Positions 12,724-53,153 of a DNA stretch of 64,000 nt are shown one piece after another. Origin of the DNA: Qipengyuania vesicularis. Lineage in GTDB: Bacteria; Pseudomonadota; Alphaproteobacteria; Sphingomonadales; Sphingomonadaceae. Each line of letters starts with the position of its first letter. Position 1 is the first letter of the stretch. The position numbers and the translations under genes were made by a program. The notes beneath the pieces are model-generated. The model did no database searches. It was given only the letters and a program-made list of their open reading frames with translations, and was not told where the DNA came from. The DNA lies in NCBI RefSeq assembly GCF_019711415.1, contig NZ_JAIGNJ010000002.1, positions 248,001 through 312,000 on the forward strand. Reading direction: 5' to 3'.

Positions 12724-12741
12724 CCTGACCGCGAGGTCAGG
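12724..12741. terminator. hairpin CCTGACC-GCGA-GGTCAGG
   Basis: A perfect 7-bp stem with a GCGA tetraloop lies between typA and the convergent tadE-like gene and covers that gene's stop codon (12737-12739). There is no T-tract, so it may act as a bidirectional attenuating structure rather than a classical terminator. Confidence 0.4.
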
Positions 12742-13372
12742 TGCAGGCGTTGACGGCCAGTCCCTGGGCGTTGCCGATGTCCTGGTTCTGGCGTCCACGC
12801 ACGTTGAACGCACTTTCGTGGCGGATGCGACGGGCCGCCATCCAATTGGGCCCGACCAGCGGCTGGTAGTCATAAGTCACTTCGACGAACATCACGGCCG
12901 TATTCTGCGCGGCAGTGATCTTGTTGCTTCCCTGACCCATGCCGGTGTTCAGGCTGTTGTCGCTTCGACCCTTGCCTTCGCGGCCATAGGCAGGCGCGAT
13001 CGTGAGGTCTCCCCAGCAGCGCTGCCAGTGGATCATCTGACCCTTGTTTACGCCATTTCCCTTGTTGTCCTGAAGCGAGGACAGGACAACGCGGCCATTG
13101 GCCTCGAAATCAAGGTCTTCTCCCAGAACGTCCGCGCCTGCGAAGACCTCGTAGATATTGGCCTCGTCCACCGAAGTCGGGATACGCCCGGCATTGTCGG
13201 CCACGGTCATCGCGATCTGGTTCACGCGCATGTAGGACAGGGCAAAATTCGTCAGCTCGAGTCCTCCGAGGATCATCACCAGCAGGACGGGCGCAATGAA
13301 CGCGAATTCGATCATTGCCACGCCGTCCGTATCTTCGATGAGATCGCGTGTGTCCCTGTAGTTCATCGTCAT
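12737..13372 (-). CDS. TadE-like pseudopilin-type protein
   Basis: A 211-residue protein with a TadE-like N-terminus: a short cytoplasmic leader with DGVAMIEFAFIAPVLL, where the Glu in the hydrophobic stretch is characteristic of TadE and TadF. A large periplasmic part follows. The start is ATG 13372 (MTMNYRD), which overlaps the upstream stop by 4 bases; the open frame continues to 13471 but that would run inside the upstream gene. It is third in a TadG/VWA-TadE-TadE unit. Probably an exported minor pilin or surface-structure protein. No prepilin peptidase or TadA ATPase is present in the window. Confidence 0.75.
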   Translation of the reverse strand: MTMNYRDTRDLIEDTDGVAMIEFAFIAPVLLVMILGGLELTNFALSYMRVNQIAMTVADNAGRIPTSVDEANIYEVFAGADVLGEDLDFEANGRVVLSSLQDNKGNGVNKGQMIHWQRCWGDLTIAPAYGREGKGRSDNSLNTGMGQGSNKITAAQNTAVMFVEVTYDYQPLVGPNWMAARRIRHESAFNVRGRQNQDIGNAQGLAVNACT

Positions 13373-13992
13373 ACTCCGCACAGAACCGGAGGAAGCGCCT
13401 GATCGGCATAGGGCTGGTTGCGCACGGCGCTGCTGGCCTCGAGGCTTGTCGTGTTCGACAAGCCCAGCCATCCGGCGACCGGGAACAGACGCGGCATCGT
13501 CAAGGTAGCCCGGTAGAACACCACGTCGTTTGCGCCGCCAACACCGGCACGCCCGGTGTCAGTGTCGTAAGACCCGTTTTCGTTCAGATCCTCGAAGCAA
13601 TCGTTATCGGCTGCGTCGTAGCTTCCGTTGGCGTTGACGTCGGTCATCAACTTTTCCGGATTACCGATCCCGCTGAAGTCGTAGAAATTGCTGATTTCGA
13701 TGTTGTAGGTCGCGCGCGGTGCGACGGGATTGACCTGTGCCTTCACGGTGTTCTCGATCCGCTCTTCCAGCGTTGTTCCGGCAGCCGTAAAGCCGGGATC
13801 CTGTACGCTTGCCAAGCGTGCGCTGTCGGACAGCGCCCCTTGCAGTTGGGACTTCACATACGCGCTGTGAGCCAGGTCGGAACCACCCATAAGAATGGTA
13901 AAGAAGGGCACCGCAAGAAGTGCGAATTCCACCGCGCTCACGCCGCGCTGGTCACGCAGCAGGCTGCAACGCTGCAAGATGGCCGGCCTCAT
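13369..13992 (-). CDS. TadE-like protein with EF-hand-like repeats
   Basis: A 207-residue TadE-type protein: RGVSAVEFALLAVPFF near residues 16-31 is the pilin-like membrane segment with its Glu. In the periplasmic part, residues 118-129 (D-V-N-A-N-G-S-Y-D-A-A-D) and 135-146 (D-L-N-E-N-G-S-Y-D-T-D-T) are tandem calcium-loop-like repeats. It overlaps the genes on both sides by 4 bases, so the three genes are translationally coupled. It may need calcium for folding of a surface structure; this is inference. Confidence 0.75.
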   Translation of the reverse strand: MRPAILQRCSLLRDQRGVSAVEFALLAVPFFTILMGGSDLAHSAYVKSQLQGALSDSARLASVQDPGFTAAGTTLEERIENTVKAQVNPVAPRATYNIEISNFYDFSGIGNPEKLMTDVNANGSYDAADNDCFEDLNENGSYDTDTGRAGVGGANDVVFYRATLTMPRLFPVAGWLGLSNTTSLEASSAVRNQPYADQALPPVLCGV

Positions 13993-15509
13993 CGCGTCAG
14001 CCTCAGATTGCCGATGCCCTGGCCGATGGTGGCGAAGACCGTTTCGAGGTCGCTGCCATCGCTCACGAAGAAGTGATCGCTGCTGGTGGCGCAGGGTTCG
14101 ATATCGTCCGTGCTGCCAACGTCCAGCGCGATCACCCAGACCGTAACGCCCATCGACTTGGCGACCGAGCAGGCAGACGCGAAGCGGTCGAGGTGCTTTT
14201 GGTCGAGCGTACCGGTGCCCTGGGTACGCTGCTGGAACGGCTCCACGCCATGCGCTGAGTAAAGCCGATCATCCGTGTCGAGCTCACCATCGGTCATGAA
14301 GACGATGTGCTGGTTGACCGGCACCGTCCCGATCTCGGTAGGATTGTCGCTTGAGAAGAAGCCGGTGCGCGAGATGAAGCGCGCGCCCCAGAGCATACCG
14401 ATATCGTGGTAGGTACCACCCCGGACGCGAGCCGTGGCACTGGAGATCGCGGCATTATAGCCCGCTTCGTCGGCATATTCGGTCAGCCTGCTCGCCTCAG
14501 CCGGGCAGCCTGCAAACATCGTGGTTCCGATGAGGCCGTACCTGACGAGCCCACTGCCGGATTTCCAGCGTGTCGTGTGGCTATCCGGGGCGTAACGCCC
14601 GAACTGCAGTGCGGTGTCGCCTGCATTCGCCGCCCGATTATCGACGTCTGCGCGGGTTATGGTTTCGTGGATTTCAATGGGGGAAGAAGACTCCCCGACA
14701 CTGGCGCGTTCCTCGATGCAGCCCTCACCGCTCCGGCGGAACAGGTTGATATTGCTGCCGCTGTTACCAGTGTAACTACCCCAGTTCTCAGCATTCACGT
14801 TGACCGTCTTGGTCCTCGCGCTGCACCCGGATCCCGTGCACCTTTCGTCGATGAAAGTCTGCAGCCGCAGAATGTCGTTCTCAGCAAGGCTGCGCGCGAC
14901 ATTGACCGTGTGCGAATAGGGCACGATGCCATAGCGCGTCTGCGAATTCGGAGCGCCGGCTAGCGCGCGGTACAGGCCCGATGCGCCCGTGCGGAGGGCA
15001 TCGATTTTCGCCGAACCGCCGCCCGACGGCGCATTGGCCATCGACCCGGTCACGTCGAGCACGAGCACGATGTCGTTATGCGCCTGGTCGCGCTTCGCGT
15101 CGCAATTCACGGCAACCGGCACGCTGTTGTAACCGAACACATGCATGATGACCGTCGGGATCTCGGCCGAAGCCGTGCCGACGATTTCCTGCTGGTCCAC
15201 CGGATTCTGTCCGAGGTTGAACCGCACATTGCGGGCATTGAGGCTGGCGGCAGGGAAGTTGAAGTCGAAGAACTTCTGCGCCTCTGCGCGATTGCCGACA
15301 TCGAGATTGGTCCCGAGCATCGACTGCCGACCTGCAAGCACGGCGGAGTCACATGCGTTCTGCAGCTTGGCCTGGGCGGAGTAGGCAAGGCTCATGTCGA
15401 CGGCCCCGCCGACAAGGATCATCAGCGGCACCAATGCTCCTGCTGCGAGCATCAGTACGTTGCCTTCGACGTCGTCTTTCAGCCTACGAAAGAATGCCTT
15501 GAACCCCAT
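13989..15509 (-). CDS. TadG-like protein with von Willebrand A domain
   Basis: A 506-residue TadG-type protein. An N-terminal membrane helix with the Flp/TadG signature (GNVLMLAAGALVPLMILVGGAVDMSLAY, about 16-43) is followed by LQNACDSAVLAG. A VWA domain begins near residue 148 with the metal site DVTGSM (canonical DxSxS altered to DVTGS). It continues with a long insert containing four cysteines, and ends with SDGSDLETVFATIGQGI. Such proteins are exported and linked to tad pili or surface adhesion. First gene of the three-gene unit; its promoter lies in the 443-base gap upstream. Confidence 0.82.
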   Translation of the reverse strand: MGFKAFFRRLKDDVEGNVLMLAAGALVPLMILVGGAVDMSLAYSAQAKLQNACDSAVLAGRQSMLGTNLDVGNRAEAQKFFDFNFPAASLNARNVRFNLGQNPVDQQEIVGTASAEIPTVIMHVFGYNSVPVAVNCDAKRDQAHNDIVLVLDVTGSMANAPSGGGSAKIDALRTGASGLYRALAGAPNSQTRYGIVPYSHTVNVARSLAENDILRLQTFIDERCTGSGCSARTKTVNVNAENWGSYTGNSGSNINLFRRSGEGCIEERASVGESSSPIEIHETITRADVDNRAANAGDTALQFGRYAPDSHTTRWKSGSGLVRYGLIGTTMFAGCPAEASRLTEYADEAGYNAAISSATARVRGGTYHDIGMLWGARFISRTGFFSSDNPTEIGTVPVNQHIVFMTDGELDTDDRLYSAHGVEPFQQRTQGTGTLDQKHLDRFASACSVAKSMGVTVWVIALDVGSTDDIEPCATSSDHFFVSDGSDLETVFATIGQGIGNLRLTR

Positions 15510-15952
15510 GATTTCGCCTCCCCGACGAGCCCCGGAATGTCCGAACGCACAATAGCCTCCGGAAAATCACACATCAGGATGAGGAGAATTTATTTCCAAC
15601 AAGTAAACCACGACGATGATTCGCGGCAGAAAACGTGGGTATTCAGGGGCCTCCAAGAATGGTTACGTTCACAACTACAGAAAAGCGCCGAAATCAGTGT
15701 TAAGTTCGGGTTACCGGATTCTGGTCTTTTCCGGGCATGGTCATTTTCTCTGGCGACGCGACGCGCATTGCAAGGGAGCAAACCTTCGGAATTCGGCGTG
15801 GATCAGACGAATCAGATGTCAGGCCCCGATCTCCTCCGGGCCACAATCTCGGCCACGGCTCCCTAGGCAATCTTAACACACCTGCAGGGAACAATCTTCC
15901 AGAACGGGAACCGCATTCGCGAACGGGTGTTAGTGGCCGCAGGAGGATTTGC
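15510..15952. other. 443-base intergenic region, AT-richer than average
   Basis: The only gap above 300 bases. It must hold the promoter of the tadG/tadE unit (leftward) and of the response regulator (rightward). A GGAAC-N17-GTT element lies at its right end. A 95-codon reading frame at 15579-15866 (start ATG 15579) is open, but it has weak codon bias for this genome and no clear ribosome site, so I do not call it a gene. I see no RNA gene or mobile element. Confidence 0.6.
15907..15931 (+). promoter_or_regulatory. possible sigma-EcfG promoter (GGAAC-N17-GTT)
   Basis: GGAAC at 15907-15911 and GTT at 15929-15931, 17 bases apart, match the general-stress sigma-EcfG consensus of Alphaproteobacteria. 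It would start transcription about 15 bases before the response-regulator ATG at 15953, just upstream of its AGGAGGA ribosome site, so the leader would be very short. The spacing and match are seen; use by EcfG is inference. Confidence 0.45.
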
Positions 15953-16339
15953 ATGCGCCGTGTGATGATCGTTGATGACGAGGCCCTCGTCCTGTTCGAT
16001 CTCGCGATGACGGTAGAGGATCTCGGGTACGAGGTGTTCTGCGACAGCATCAGCGTGAGCGATGCGCTGGAATGCCTGGGCGAGGATTGCCCGGATGCTG
16101 CCCTCCTCGATATCGACGTCGGCGGCACGCTGGTCTGGCCGCTCGCCCGAGTTCTAAAAACCCGCGACTGCCCGATCGTGTTCGTGAGTGCGAACCGCGC
16201 GCACGAAGAACTGCGCGGGGAGTTCTCGCATTGCGGTTTTATCGACAAGCCCGCCTCTGCCGACCAGATCGACAAGACGCTGAGCGGAATATTCGGATCG
16301 GCCCGGTACGAACCTAGAGCTGAGGCAGGTCGGGCGTAA
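15953..16339 (+). CDS. single-domain response regulator
   Basis: A 128-residue receiver domain with no output domain. The acidic pair is Asp8/Asp9, the phosphoacceptor is about Asp53 (ALLDID), and the conserved Lys99 sits in DKP. The start is ATG 15953 behind a strong AGGAGGA site; the longer open frame upstream is non-coding in character. It is convergent with, and overlaps by 26 bases, the CheB-CheR-HWE kinase gene. Such stand-alone receivers commonly accept phosphate from HWE kinases, so it is the obvious partner. It resembles the second single-domain regulator at 52788. Confidence 0.88.
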   Translation: MRRVMIVDDEALVLFDLAMTVEDLGYEVFCDSISVSDALECLGEDCPDAALLDIDVGGTLVWPLARVLKTRDCPIVFVSANRAHEELRGEFSHCGFIDKPASADQIDKTLSGIFGSARYEPRAEAGRA

Positions 16340-19300
16340 ACCGCAGACGTCGCGTATAGCCTTCGTCGGTCGGTTCGCCTTCAATATCGCCCTTGAGCTG
16401 CCGCGTTGCGGTTTCAATCAGCCTGGTTCCGAACCCGGCCTTGCCGCCCCCCGCTTTCTTGCCCAGCCCCTTCTCGCGCCAGTCGAGCGTCAGTCGGTTC
16501 TCCTCGACTGCCCAGTCCACCTCGAGGCAGCCGTCCTCCACCGAAAGGGCGCCATATTTGGCTGCATTGGTCGCCCATTCATGCAGGATCAGGGCGAGCG
16601 ATGTGATCTGGCTGTTCGGCACATCGACATCCTCGCCCATCAGGTGAATGTCCTGCGTAGACTTGCTGGGATTGACGACCGTTTCGATCAGGCTGCGCAG
16701 CGGGACTGCCCCTGCACCCCCGACCGCGGAATCGTTTGTTAGCGAGTGCGACCGACCCAGCGCATGGATGCGATCGCGAATGTCCTCGGCGAATTCTTCC
16801 ACTTCCTCTGCTTCGCGCGCGGCGATGGAAACCATGGCGCTGATGACCGAGAACAGGTTCTTCACCCGGTGGTTCATCTCGCGGATCATCAGTTCGCGCT
16901 GTTCGAGCAGCGAGCGTTCCGCCGTAATGTCGATGGTGACGCCTATGAACTTGTTGGTCTGGCCATTGTCGATGCGGCGTCCGAGGCCGTGGAGCCAGCG
17001 ATAGTCACCATTGTCGAGCGGAACGCGGAAACGCTCGTCGAACGGGCGTGTACCGTCCATGGCCTGACGCAACGACTGATTTACCCGTGCCCGATCCTCT
17101 TCAGGCAGATTGTCCAGGATCGGCTGCATCTGGTCACCAGCCTCGCCTTCCTTCATGTTGAGTAACTGCCGTTCCGTTTCATCGAGTACCGTGATGTCGG
17201 TCGACGGCTCGTATTCCCACACCCCTATGCGCGCGACTTCCAGCGCGAGACGTAGACGCTCGCGTTCCTCGCGTAGTTCGCTTTCGAGCGACAATGCCCT
17301 GGTGACGTCGGTGAAGACCAGTGTAGCTCCGTCCAGTTCACCATCCAGCCTGCGATAGGGAAAGGCGCGGATGATAAATTCGGCTTCGAGCGAATTCGAA
17401 TGAACGCGCGCTTCCCTGGTTTCGCCACCGGAACTGGCCAAGCGTGCCAGCTCGACGAATTCGTCGTCCGCGAAGGCATTCGGCAAGGAGCCGAGATTCG
17501 AACCGATCTGCTGCTTGTCGATCGGAAAAAGGTCGCGCGCGGCATCGGTGAAACTGCGCAGCCTCAGTTCGCCGTCGACAACCAGCACCGCCAGCTGGGT
17601 GCTGTCGAAGAAGTTCTTCAGGTCGGAATTGGCCATCGTAAGCTGGTCGACCTTGTTCTTCAGCTCGTCATTGACCGTGGTCAGCTCCTCGTTGGTGGAC
17701 TGGAGCTCCTCGTTCATCGACATCATTTCTTCGTTGGAGCTCTTCAGCTCCTCATTCGTGGTCTCCAGTTCCTCGACCGTCGAACGGAGCCGGTGCCGCG
17801 TTGCCTGCAGCTCCTCTTCGAGGAAATGCTGCTGTCCGTGCTCCATGTCGAAGTCGATAAGGTCGGCCTGGTCGACCGGCTGCAGTTCGCCCGTCTCCTC
17901 AATAATGAAGAGGAACGAGCCGTGATCGATCTTCTCGCAAACGATGCGCGTTTCCACCTCGCCGAATTCGGTTCGAACGAGAATGTTCTTCGCACCGACA
18001 CGGCGCCCCCGTGCCTCATCGGCAACTTGTCGGATCATCGGCCCGATCAATTCGCGTAGGCCCGGACGGGCAAGCGAGGATACGACAACGTTGCGCTCAA
18101 GCCTGTCGGGGAAATCGAGATAGCGTCCCGCCGCCCCCCAACGTTCCATCAGCATGCCCTCGTTATCGACCAGCAGGCTGACCGGGGCATAGCGCCGCGC
18201 GATCGTCTTCAGGGCGGCTATCTCGTTGCCTTCGGTCGGCGACGGGTCTTTCGAGAACTCGGGCTTGCGCCGAGGCCGCGGTCCGACGGGGCCATCCTTC
18301 CCGATCTGCAAAGTATACTTGCCCTTTACTTCCTTTCTGCGGAAGATGCGCGAATTCTGGTCGATGGTCTCGAACAGATCATCGAAACGACCGATTGCCT
18401 CCGAAGAGCCGAGAAACAGCATGCCCCTTTCGGCCAGCGAGAAGTGGAACAGCGGGATCACCGAACGCTGAAGCGATTCGTCGAAATAAATCAGCAGGTT
18501 GCGGCAAGATACGAGATCGATCTTCGAAAACGGGGGGTCGCGAACGACGTTGTGCACGCTGAAGCGAACCATGTCGCGTATGTTCGAAGCGATGTGGAAT
18601 TTGTCGCTTCCACCAATGGTGTAGCGCTCCTGCAGAGGCTGGGGAATATCGCTGAGCGCAGAGAGCGGATAGGCTCCGCCACGCGCGATATCGAGCATCC
18701 CGTCATCGATGTCTGTCGCGAAAATCTGGATGTATGGCCGCTTGGATTGACGCTGCGCCGCTTCGGCGAACAGCATGGCGATCGAATAGGCTTCCTCACC
18801 GCTCGAGCAGCCTGGGACCCAGATGCGTAGCTCTTCCTCGTCGCGGGTTTGTTTGACCAGCCGATCGACAACCAGCGTCGACAGCGCTTCGTACTGCGCC
18901 GTATCACGAAAGAACCGTGTGACATTGATCAAAAGGTCACGGAAAAGCGCGGTGCATTCATCCTCATCGCTTCGCAGGCGTTCCAGATATTCAGCCGCAC
19001 TATCCAGGCCGAGCAATTGCATCCGGCGGGCGATGCGCCGCGTCAGGGTCGAGCGCTTGTAGCGCGAAAAATCGTGACCGACGGCCTTGCGTAAGACGTC
19101 GCATAGGTCATCGATATGATCGGTGACCTCTCTCGCTTCATCGACCTTCCCTGCAACTCCGCTGGAGCGGTCGAAAAAATTGTGCAGCGCCTCGATGATC
19201 TGGCGTGGAGCGGCAACGATATCGACCAGGCCCGTGGCAATCGCCGAGGACGGCATACCATCATAGCCCGCGCTTTCGGGATCCTGCGCCACGCACAGGC

Positions 19301-19736
19301 CGCCGTGCTCCTTGATCGCCCGAAGACCACGGCTCCCATCGCCACCGGTTCCCGACAGAATGACGCAGGCCGCATTGGACTCGCGGTCCTGCGCGAGGCT
19401 TTCGAAGAAATCATCGATCGGACGGCGCATCCCGCGCGGATCCTTGAATTCGGTAAGCTCGAGGACGCCATCCTTGAGCGCGAGGCCGTGTGCTGGCGGG
19501 ATGACGTAGATATGATCGGGTTCGACGATTTCTCCGCCGGTCGCCTGCGAGACCTCCATATCGGTATAGCGCTCGATCAGCTGCGCCATCAGCGATTCAT
19601 GGGTAGGATCGAGATGCTGGACGACCACGAAGGCCATCCCGGTCAGTTCGCTGGCACCACCAAACAGGGCGCGCAGGGCCTCGAGCCCGCCTGCCGACGC
19701 CCCGATACCAATGACCGGGAAATCCCGTTCCGCCAT
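16314..19736 (-). CDS. CheB-CheR-PAS-HWE hybrid histidine kinase
   Basis: A 1140-residue fusion. Residues 1-190 are a CheB methylesterase domain without receiver; its triad Ser14 (GASAGG), His41 and Asp133 (GTGGDG) is intact. Residues about 205-470 are a CheR methyltransferase with GCSSGEEAYSIAM and CRNLLIYF. A long coiled coil follows (about 640-720, repeated E-E-L-x-S-x-N-E-E), then one or two PAS domains to about 940. The HWE kinase has phosphoacceptor His956 (MNHRVKNL) and an ATP domain with HEWATNAAKYGALS (Asn about 1057). It lies 12 bases after a LOV gene and probably shares its transcript. It may control adaptation and phosphorylation in a non-flagellar pathway. Confidence 0.92.
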   Translation of the reverse strand: MAERDFPVIGIGASAGGLEALRALFGGASELTGMAFVVVQHLDPTHESLMAQLIERYTDMEVSQATGGEIVEPDHIYVIPPAHGLALKDGVLELTEFKDPRGMRRPIDDFFESLAQDRESNAACVILSGTGGDGSRGLRAIKEHGGLCVAQDPESAGYDGMPSSAIATGLVDIVAAPRQIIEALHNFFDRSSGVAGKVDEAREVTDHIDDLCDVLRKAVGHDFSRYKRSTLTRRIARRMQLLGLDSAAEYLERLRSDEDECTALFRDLLINVTRFFRDTAQYEALSTLVVDRLVKQTRDEEELRIWVPGCSSGEEAYSIAMLFAEAAQRQSKRPYIQIFATDIDDGMLDIARGGAYPLSALSDIPQPLQERYTIGGSDKFHIASNIRDMVRFSVHNVVRDPPFSKIDLVSCRNLLIYFDESLQRSVIPLFHFSLAERGMLFLGSSEAIGRFDDLFETIDQNSRIFRRKEVKGKYTLQIGKDGPVGPRPRRKPEFSKDPSPTEGNEIAALKTIARRYAPVSLLVDNEGMLMERWGAAGRYLDFPDRLERNVVVSSLARPGLRELIGPMIRQVADEARGRRVGAKNILVRTEFGEVETRIVCEKIDHGSFLFIIEETGELQPVDQADLIDFDMEHGQQHFLEEELQATRHRLRSTVEELETTNEELKSSNEEMMSMNEELQSTNEELTTVNDELKNKVDQLTMANSDLKNFFDSTQLAVLVVDGELRLRSFTDAARDLFPIDKQQIGSNLGSLPNAFADDEFVELARLASSGGETREARVHSNSLEAEFIIRAFPYRRLDGELDGATLVFTDVTRALSLESELREERERLRLALEVARIGVWEYEPSTDITVLDETERQLLNMKEGEAGDQMQPILDNLPEEDRARVNQSLRQAMDGTRPFDERFRVPLDNGDYRWLHGLGRRIDNGQTNKFIGVTIDITAERSLLEQRELMIREMNHRVKNLFSVISAMVSIAAREAEEVEEFAEDIRDRIHALGRSHSLTNDSAVGGAGAVPLRSLIETVVNPSKSTQDIHLMGEDVDVPNSQITSLALILHEWATNAAKYGALSVEDGCLEVDWAVEENRLTLDWREKGLGKKAGGGKAGFGTRLIETATRQLKGDIEGEPTDEGYTRRLRFTPDLPQL

Positions 19737-19748
19737 TCAGTCGTACCC

Positions 19749-20321
19749 CTATTCATATCGCATTCGCGCAATGATCGAATGGCTTGATGCCAGAGTTTCG
19801 AGACTCGCGAGCAATTCCCAATTGCTACCGCTACTCAACTCATTGAGTTTGCGCAAATCTTGCTTGAGTGCACGGTCATAAACATCCGGCGCCAGCCCTT
19901 GCGGCCGACCGACCCGGAATTGCGAACCGAGGATCAGGCGGCGATCGGCGTCGCGTCCAAGCTTTGCCATGTAGACGAGATTGAGGAAGTCTTCGCCGTC
20001 CGCGGTCCGGTTTGGGATGAGGAAACGCTCGTTGGCTACGTCATCCATCTTCAGGAAACGACGCATGCGTGCGCGGACAGGGCCTGCACCGCCTTCGGGT
20101 TGAAGGAAGCGGCAGTTTCGACCGATGACGTCCTCGGCTCGATAGCCAGAAAGGTCGAGAAATGCGGCATTGGCAGCGATCAGCGGACAATCCGGACGCG
20201 TCGCATCGGCAAGGGTGAGCGACACCTTGCTTCTTTCGAACAACTTCACCAACCCGCTGGGAAGCGTGGCTGGATCTTCGAAAAAGGCCGTCATGAGAGC
20301 CTGTTCCAGCTCTTCCTCCAT
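19749..20321 (-). CDS. short LOV blue-light photoreceptor protein
   Basis: A 190-residue protein with a complete LOV domain. GRNCRFLQ is at residues 67-74 with the photoactive Cys70; flavin contacts Arg71, Gln74, Asn104, Asn114 and Gln134 are in place. This predicts FMN binding and a light-driven cysteinyl adduct. N-terminal (1-30) and C-terminal (145-190) helices flank it with no kinase or DNA-binding domain, so it is a short LOV protein acting through protein contacts. It is first in a unit with the CheB-CheR-HWE kinase (12-base gap), its likely target. A GGAAC-N18-GTT sequence upstream (20349-20374, minus) is one base too long for a good EcfG site. Confidence 0.9.
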   Translation of the reverse strand: MEEELEQALMTAFFEDPATLPSGLVKLFERSKVSLTLADATRPDCPLIAANAAFLDLSGYRAEDVIGRNCRFLQPEGGAGPVRARMRRFLKMDDVANERFLIPNRTADGEDFLNLVYMAKLGRDADRRLILGSQFRVGRPQGLAPDVYDRALKQDLRKLNELSSGSNWELLASLETLASSHSIIARMRYE

Positions 20322-20420
20322 AATCTCGGAAATGCGACCCGGACATAAAACTCGCGAGGGTTACTGCGGGTTCCGGGACTGCGGTGGCCAAGACTGGTTG
20401 CATTTGTTACCTGCCCGCCC

Positions 20421-52787: not shown

Positions 52788-53153
52788 ATGGGACAGCAGC
52801 AGCTACGCGTACTTGTGGCAGAAGACGAGATGATCGTCGGCTACGACCTTTGCGATACCGTTTCGGAAGCAGGCTATCTGGTCGAAGGTCCGTTTGACGA
52901 CCTCTCCAGCGCCATGCTCGCATACCAGAAAACCAAACCCGACGTGGCCATCCTCGATGTCCAGCTTGGCGATGGCATTGTCTACCCGCTCGCCGAGCAG
53001 ATGATGGCCGAGAATGTGCCGGTTATCTTCCACTCTGGCCAGCTGACGCCCGAAGAGGTCGCGAGCCGCTTCCCCAACGCCCAGGCGCTGCAGAAGCCCT
53101 GCCCGCCGGCAGAGGTGATCCACTCGGTCCAGCGCGCCGCGCAGCACCATTGA
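52788..53153 (+). CDS. single-domain response regulator
   Basis: A 121-residue receiver domain without output domain: acidic pair Glu12/Asp13, phosphoacceptor Asp57 (AILDVQLGDG), and Lys103 (QKP). It resembles the receiver at 15953, including the LD-x-x-x-G-x-x-x-x-P-L-A layout, so it could also accept phosphate from an HWE kinase. No kinase is adjacent. ATG 52788 has GAGGAGAGG upstream. Monocistronic in appearance. Confidence 0.86.
   Translation: MGQQQLRVLVAEDEMIVGYDLCDTVSEAGYLVEGPFDDLSSAMLAYQKTKPDVAILDVQLGDGIVYPLAEQMMAENVPVIFHSGQLTPEEVASRFPNAQALQKPCPPAEVIHSVQRAAQHH

Follow-up and report, generated by a model that had tools for sequence, protein, structure and literature searches.

Organization of the LOV-kinase locus

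The 64,000-nucleotide stretch of the Qipengyuania vesicularis genome analyzed here (contig NZ_JAIGNJ010000002.1, positions 248,001 to 312,000; hereafter the window, whose numbering is used throughout) contains a putative light-sensing locus of three genes, which encode a short LOV protein, a CheB-CheR-PAS-PAS-HWE histidine kinase and a single-domain response regulator. The LOV gene (19749..20321, minus strand, 190 aa) is followed after 12 intergenic bases by the kinase gene (16314..19736, minus strand, 1140 aa), an arrangement reported in a first-pass annotation of the sequence and borne out by the open reading frame (ORF) coordinates and Pfam, with the kinase orthologs likewise lying downstream of LOV. 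The receiver gene (15953..16339, 128 aa, Pfam Response_reg) overlaps the kinase 3' end, as had been noted, by 26 bp; being on the plus strand, it converges with the kinase gene, and its membership of the kinase operon is therefore rejected. Nor are sensor, methylation enzyme and kinase all separate, as had been supposed, because CheB, CheR and kinase form one polypeptide and only the LOV protein and the receiver stand apart. The domain observation is thus confirmed, while the interpretation first attached to it is partly supported.

The LOV core (approximately residues 27-137) carries the photoactive cysteine Cys70 within GRNCRFLQ (codon at 20112..20114, minus strand) and the flavin contacts Arg71, Gln74, Asn104, Asn114 and Gln134, which make up the LOV photoreceptor signature (GxNCRFLQ cysteine plus flavin contacts), were placed correctly in the earlier description and are invariant in 32/32 aligned LOV proteins. 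As also described, the protein has no output domain of its own: Pfam finds only PAS, and the AlphaFold 2 (AF2) model (mean predicted local distance difference test score 82.1) has only helices after the core (145-153 and 167-189), so that no effector domain is covalently attached. The conservation of helix 167-189 matches that of the core (0.62 vs 0.63). The closest solved relatives by sequence are RsLOV, an RNA-binding LOV receptor (6hmj), Phototropin-1 and the LOV domain of EL346, and RsLOV, with about 30% identity, ranks first in the fold comparison. Judged from its residues, the protein is well supported as a short LOV protein competent for photochemistry.

The kinase begins with a CheB methylesterase domain (residues 9-184; 19185..19712), followed by CheR N-terminal and S-adenosylmethionine (SAM)-binding domains (residues 208-462; 18351..19115; CheR_N 208-258, PF03705, and CheR 271-462, PF01739), these and all further domains being on the minus strand. 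Ser14, His41 and Asp133 of CheB, the Ser-His-Asp triad typical of the family, are present in 36/36 aligned kinases, and so are seven CheR positions (T273, R277, G309, E314, D342, N413 and Y417) that, like the other residues named here as catalytic, are assigned this role by family. Both CheB and CheR are probably active. The alignment omits two kinases cut by a contig end (L056 and L057) and two loci without a kinase (L067 and L068). The N-terminal receiver typical of chemotaxis CheB was not found, as CheB starts at residue 9 and Pfam gives no Response_reg match in the kinase. Further on lie PAS_10 (residues 706-812; 17301..17621; Pfam) and PAS_3 (approximately residues 835-937, with a Pfam match at 856-933; 16926..17234; Pfam and the AF2 model), and the AF2 secondary structure suggests a third PAS-like stretch, unrecognized by Pfam, at residues 504-614 (17895..18227). 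The domain order first given, CheB-CheR-PAS-HWE, agrees with Pfam, while the number of PAS domains does not hold. The HWE_HK dimerization/phosphoacceptor domain (residues 953-1035; 16632..16880) scores 57.3 bits against a cut-off of 22.8 (PF07536), and the ATP-binding region (16332..16631) shows in the alignment an HWE-type N-box (Glu1053, Asn1057) and Trp1086/Glu1088; His956, Glu1053 and Asn1057 are found in 36/36 kinases, as expected of an HWE histidine kinase.

Conservation of the LOV-kinase pair

Adjacency of the LOV and CheB-CheR-HWE kinase genes in related genomes had been set as a test by the first-pass annotation, and it was found in 38/38 genomes of the order, on the same strand and with 14-199 bases between the matches; since the adjacency is conserved, the arrangement is not due to chance. 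Among 396 order genomes, 38 carry both genes, none carries the LOV alone, two carry the kinase alone (G198 and G005) and 356 carry neither, two of the last (G026 and G485) holding relics; this co-occurrence gives a Fisher p of about 5e-51, uncorrected for relatedness. All carriers belong to the window's own family, and 15 of the 38 to its genus. For the LOV orthologs, 17 of 55 matching genomes were excluded, whose match was to a LOV domain of another protein or, in G026 and G485, to a relic, and for the 40 kinase orthologs, which reach the kinase end, four of 44 matches that extend to residue 939 or less were excluded (G483, G398, G493 and G381).

In a set of 199 family genomes, the LOV matches fell into an ortholog group made up of the window, ten genomes (E <=3.1e-28) and G105 (5.6e-19), and a second group made up of other LOV proteins. 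Matches of the ortholog group reach residue 187 or beyond, except in G026 (residues 8-106), and all twelve genomes have the kinase beside the LOV (a remnant in G026), with about 900 bases between them in G178 and G119. In the named collection, the kinase lies behind the LOV in 37/39 loci, two of them cut by contig ends and five having an intervening Crp-like gene, and in all 37 the two proteins occupy separate reading frames, not the single chain of LovK. These loci overlap the other genome sets (at least seven loci) and include near-identical pairs. Their hosts include Qipengyuania, Parerythrobacter, Erythrobacter litoralis SNB-035, Tsuneonella, Croceicoccus, Novosphingobium (a metagenome-assembled genome, MAG), Sphingomonas and Sphingobium, as well as, from another order, Palleronia, Cereibacter and Rhodobacter.

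Sequence distances of LOV and kinase correlate at r 0.91 (36 loci), and those of kinase and receiver at 0.93 (30 loci), as co-inheritance predicts. Moreover, LOV and kinase decay together: in G026 (L046, 8034-9310), LOV residues 8-106 pass directly into kinase residues 981-1138 with one stop while the receiver frame is open, and in G485 the LOV is in two pieces with no kinase within 18 kb and none in the genome at E 1e-200. The 4.3-7 kb pieces surrounding 21 divergent CheB-CheR fusions yielded no LOV. The short LOV protein and the CheB-CheR-HWE kinase are, on these comparisons, well supported as a conserved unit.

Several loci differ in detail. In Croceicoccus loci L071, L073, L077, L080 and L081, the LOV and kinase genes are separated by that of a Crp/Fnr-like regulator (about 255 aa, named by eye); in C. 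mobilis (L082), this regulator lies beyond the receiver instead. The LOV of Leisingera (L068) is beside genes for a GntR-like regulator and a TRAP-like binding protein, named by eye in this locus only. The LOV-less kinase of G005 (L049, 7290-10795) is in two overlapping frames across CheB, which may be broken.

The receiver and its promoter

Of the 35 complete named loci, 29 have a receiver at the 3' end of the kinase gene, convergent in 23 and co-directional in six (Sphingobium, Cereibacter, Rhodobacter and three Sphingomonas); L054, L071, L073, L077, L080 and L081 were counted as misses. The LOV-less kinases of G198 and G005 each have a co-directional receiver as well. Because of this linkage in the 29 loci and at both LOV-less kinases, the receiver is regarded as belonging to the kinase whatever its orientation. 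In NCBIfam it matches PhyR and PRK13435 best, in each case below the cut-off, and its solved relatives include SdrG (5ieb). A second single-domain receiver is present in the window (52788-53153, plus strand); among the window ORFs, it is the one that the receivers linked to the kinase in G194, G105 and G005 match best (35-38% identity).

An EcfG-type promoter-like site, GGAAC-N16-TGTT (15907..15931, plus strand), lies 46 bases before the receiver start; it is the only GGAAC-N16/17-TGTT in the window, which has no CGTT form. The EcfG promoter is given as GGAAC-N16-CGTT, with the -10 variants TGTT, CATT and GGTT, in the available text of PMC7083833. With N16 or N17 allowed and 175 upstream regions of other ORFs from the same loci as controls, the strict site was found in 9/29 receiver upstream regions vs 2/175 controls, and any listed form in 11/29. 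When the regions were grouped into 19 clusters, the window included, and a cluster was scored as positive if any member had a site, 7/19 were positive vs 4/175 controls (p 7e-6). Together with the linkage in the 29 loci, this may be a sequence-level counterpart of the linked receiver under a stress sigma factor that marks LovK-LovR. A weak EcfG-like match, GGAAC-N17-AGTT (20349..20374, minus strand), precedes the LOV gene, AGTT not being among the -10 variants given in the available text of PMC7083833. EcfG control of the LOV promoter is not claimed, the strict site occurring in 2/40 and the loose site in 8/40 upstream regions vs a background of 0.5% and 0.9%.

The heptad coil and the methylation question

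Between CheR and the PAS-kinase part, the kinase has a heptad coil with EELxSTN-like repeats (core residues 653-693; 17658..17780, minus strand), which resembles chemoreceptor methylation helices and is a candidate substrate of CheR and CheB. In a set of 27 kinases (median pairwise identity 0.56), from which 9 of the 36 had been removed for at least 90% identity to one retained, 38/41 coil residues are invariant, as compared with 246/1140 in the whole protein, 40% in CheB, 23% in CheR and 13% in HWE. The most conserved 40-residue window of the kinase is the coil (0.95 invariant, the runner-up 0.53), and other helices of the kinase have 3/23, 2/15, 1/26 and 0/13 invariant residues, with 8/23 in the dimerization and histidine phosphotransfer (DHp) helix. 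Within the heptad, a is Asn (Val once), b and c are Glu (Asp once), d is Leu (Met once) and f is Ser/Thr; since a, b, c, d and f all have a conservation of 1.00 (e 0.97, g 0.94), the exposed positions b, c and f are fixed like the core positions a and d. The AF2 model shows an unbroken helix at residues 631-712 that runs into PAS_10; the same model has a predicted template modelling score of 0.37 and was unusable as evidence of contact between coil and CheR. At the DNA level, the coil shows a 21-nt periodicity, and codons differ at 33/35 invariant positions that have a synonymous choice; selection therefore acts on the protein, and a DNA element or an overlapping gene behind the conservation is ruled out.

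The motif EExx[AST][ST] at 7-residue spacing corresponds to the chemoreceptor methylation site in its short form; a longer form has an additional small pair in front. The short form occurs exactly at residues 655, 662 and 676 (also at 641) of the window kinase, the first three being all present in 22/36 kinases and two of them in 14/36; the longer consensus was not found anywhere in the kinase. A coil search of 119 family genomes (E<=1e-8) recovered 16 genomes, each with the coil in a CheB-CheR fusion or, in G081, in the ORF that follows one. Such fusions were detected in 31/199 family genomes at E 1e-90. Among 21 divergent fusions, compared without four partial ORFs, 20 have a related coil, which is exactly 14 residues (two heptads) longer in 20/20 and has 2-4 short-form sites (just two in 12/20), and the 21st (G081) has it in the next ORF. 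These fusions keep the CheB Ser and His in 19/21 and the Asp in 21/21, and six of the seven CheR positions in 21/21, with the SAM glycine in 18/21. In G081 (L128, 1058-4647), a gap of about 57 bp between CheR and coil divides the fusion gene into two ORFs. The coil was also considered as a dock for LOV and rejected, given that the LOV-less kinases of G198 and G005 and 20/21 other CheB-CheR fusions retain it.

Chemoreceptors in the carrier genomes are relevant to what CheB and CheR act on. The first-pass annotation had seen no chemoreceptor nearby, which holds for the locus and not for the genome, where four MCPsignal and two CheW matches lie elsewhere. MCPsignal was found in 43/46 and 9/15 genomes with the module (G198 and G005 having the kinase alone), counts that include at least one genome twice (G422 = G509). 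No match to MCPsignal or CheW was found in nine module genomes (G092, G178, G119, four further Croceicoccus, Cereibacter flavus and Rhodobacter xinxiangensis), six of which are Croceicoccus, and all nine have the CheB/CheR residues and the coil intact; completeness, stated for G092, G178 and G119, is 100% in each. An ordinary methyl-accepting chemotaxis protein (MCP) is thus an unlikely CheB/CheR substrate in these nine genomes, and the most economical candidate there is the coil of the kinase itself.

Proposed module and alternative explanations

We propose a three-gene blue-light two-component module whose sensor has been split off from its kinase. The short LOV protein would bind flavin and form the Cys70 adduct in blue light, and it would then contact the kinase encoded by the next gene, probably via its C-terminal helices, and alter autophosphorylation at His956. 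The kinase would exchange phosphate with the neighbouring single-domain receiver, and the module would most likely feed the alphaproteobacterial general stress response or, as a phosphate sink like LovK-LovR, dampen it. We put the probability of the core of this proposal, that LOV acts in trans on the kinase and that the kinase uses the linked receiver, at about 0.6; coupling of LOV and kinase, considered alone, is likely, and an output to the general stress response, proposed because the receiver resembles the PhyR/SdrG group and an EcfG-type promoter is present in part of the relatives, is put at roughly even odds. In addition, CheR might methylate and CheB demethylate glutamates of the coil, resetting the kinase in constant light, an idea that is tentative and the weaker for the absence of the longer chemoreceptor consensus.

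Several observations weigh against the proposal as a whole or in part. Two LOV loci, L067 and L068, with an identical LOV (Leisingera and a Rhodobacteraceae MAG), have no kinase, their genomes carrying a more distant CheB-CheR protein elsewhere, and the kinase orthologs of G198 and G005 have no LOV. When kinases with LOV were compared with these LOV-less kinases, no LOV-docking domain stood out, so that none could be deduced in this way; a fused LOV-CheB-CheR protein was sought and rejected as well, the four long LOV ORFs (L144-L147) having neither SAGG nor the CheR SAM motif. No receiver was found at the kinase end in E. litoralis SNB-035 and in 5/6 Croceicoccus loci, and in those five the Crp-like gene separates LOV and kinase. 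The EcfG-type match in the window is within chance (a match in 33/100 shuffles), so that the cross-locus comparison carries the weight, and 12/19 receiver clusters are without a site. As for the coil, CheB and CheR could act on the receptors encoded elsewhere in the window's own genome.

Some of these points would suit a LOV protein that is co-transcribed with the kinase but acts elsewhere, for instance, in the manner of PmSB-LOV and PmlR2, on a transcription factor, with the kinase sensing through its own PAS domains: the LOV-less kinases, the kinase-less LOVs and the Crp-like gene within five Croceicoccus loci are all in line with it. Such an explanation is nevertheless improbable in view of the adjacency in 38/38 genomes and the co-occurrence in the order set, the parallel decay in G026 and G485, and the linkage retained in Palleronia, Cereibacter and Rhodobacter. 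The receiver, a plain one without an output domain and mostly without an EcfG-type site at the cluster level, may alternatively have no part in the general stress response and be a regulator of the CheY-like or cell-cycle type, which appears doubtful against its PhyR and PRK13435 matches (below cut-offs as they are), SdrG among its solved relatives and the site enrichment.

The role of CheB and CheR can also be read in other ways. Their intact residues, and the presence of MCPsignal in most module genomes, the window's own included, would fit enzymes that modify chemoreceptors and a module that ties light to chemotaxis; the nine genomes without MCPsignal and CheW, in which residues and coil are intact all the same, make this the least probable of the explanations considered. 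Much closer to an even chance, and only slightly short of it, is that the coil is a mere signalling or dimerization helix that needs an exact register, with CheB and CheR as scaffolds or acting on another protein. The unbroken helix into PAS_10 favours such a structural role, and so do the missing longer methylation-site form and the short form that fits exactly in just three repeats, and in two in 14/36 kinases. On the other side, the invariance of the exposed positions b, c and f equals that of a and d in the core, other helices of the kinase are far less so, and the coil is seen only with CheB-CheR in the 119 genomes searched.

Neighbouring genes and a single-chain LOV kinase

Between the LOV-kinase locus and a BipA/TypA-like GTPase gene are TadE/TadF/TadG-like pilus genes (window 12737-15509, minus strand), named by eye from the translations. 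No further HWE_HK match was found within the window. Elsewhere in the window's genome, a separate single-chain LOV-HWE kinase is encoded at G000:C1:332893-333843, within a 379-aa open frame.

Comparison with known systems

In EL346 of Erythrobacter litoralis, Brucella LOV-HK and RT-HK, as proposed here, a LOV sensor and an HWE-type kinase work together, and EL346 and Brucella LOV-HK are among the solved relatives; these systems are single chains, whereas here the LOV protein is separate and the kinase has CheB and CheR in front. The closest working model is LovK-LovR of Caulobacter crescentus, in which lovKR is under SigT control and, as a phosphate sink, drains the stress pathway (PMC5964349). 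It shares LOV input, histidine kinase and single-domain receiver (PMC5964349), although LovK is a single protein encoded in one operon with LovR; the present module has a detached LOV, CheB-CheR in addition, and a receiver gene that converges with the kinase gene in 23/29 loci. The Sphingomonas Pak-SdrG-PhyT-PhyR relay, where sensor kinases and a single-domain receiver lie upstream of PhyR and EcfG (PMC6599016), shares the layout of sensor kinase and single-domain receiver; the word CheR is absent from the main text of that paper.

Short LOV proteins presumably signal in trans to a distinct protein (PMC6798134), and PmSB-LOV is reported as a short LOV acting in trans on a regulator encoded next to it (PMC9758184). 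RsLOV and PmSB-LOV, like the window LOV, have no fused output and have helical caps; the partner of PmSB-LOV is a LitR-type repressor, whereas the partner proposed here is a kinase. A link to LOV-1477 of E. flavus 21-3 was dropped, since the available text calls that protein a LOV histidine kinase, unlike the short LOV of the window. Other CheB-CheR-PAS fusions of the family have the same N-terminal half and a related heptad coil (20/21), but most of their matches to the window kinase stop before the kinase domain. In openly licensed papers, a weak basis for a negative, no literature was found that pairs a short LOV protein with a CheB-CheR-HWE kinase or describes the methylation of a kinase of this type, and these papers likewise yielded none on the methylation substrate of CheB-CheR fusions.

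Significance

The genomes nominate, with strong statistics, a trans partner for a short LOV protein, and the coil, as the most conserved part of the kinase, offers a concrete candidate substrate for CheB-CheR fusions. Natural test cases are available in the nine MCP-less genomes, of which six are Croceicoccus. If self-methylation of the coil were true, it would amount to adaptation of the chemotaxis type in a system with no chemoreceptor, CheA or CheW; methylation-based sensory adaptation would reach soluble histidine kinases, and other CheB-CheR-PAS fusion proteins would be recognizable by their coil as self-adapting receptors. The module would then also be a ready split optogenetic switch with memory. 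For the hosts, marine bacteria related to Erythrobacter, this may mean a light-sensing module that adapts to constant light.

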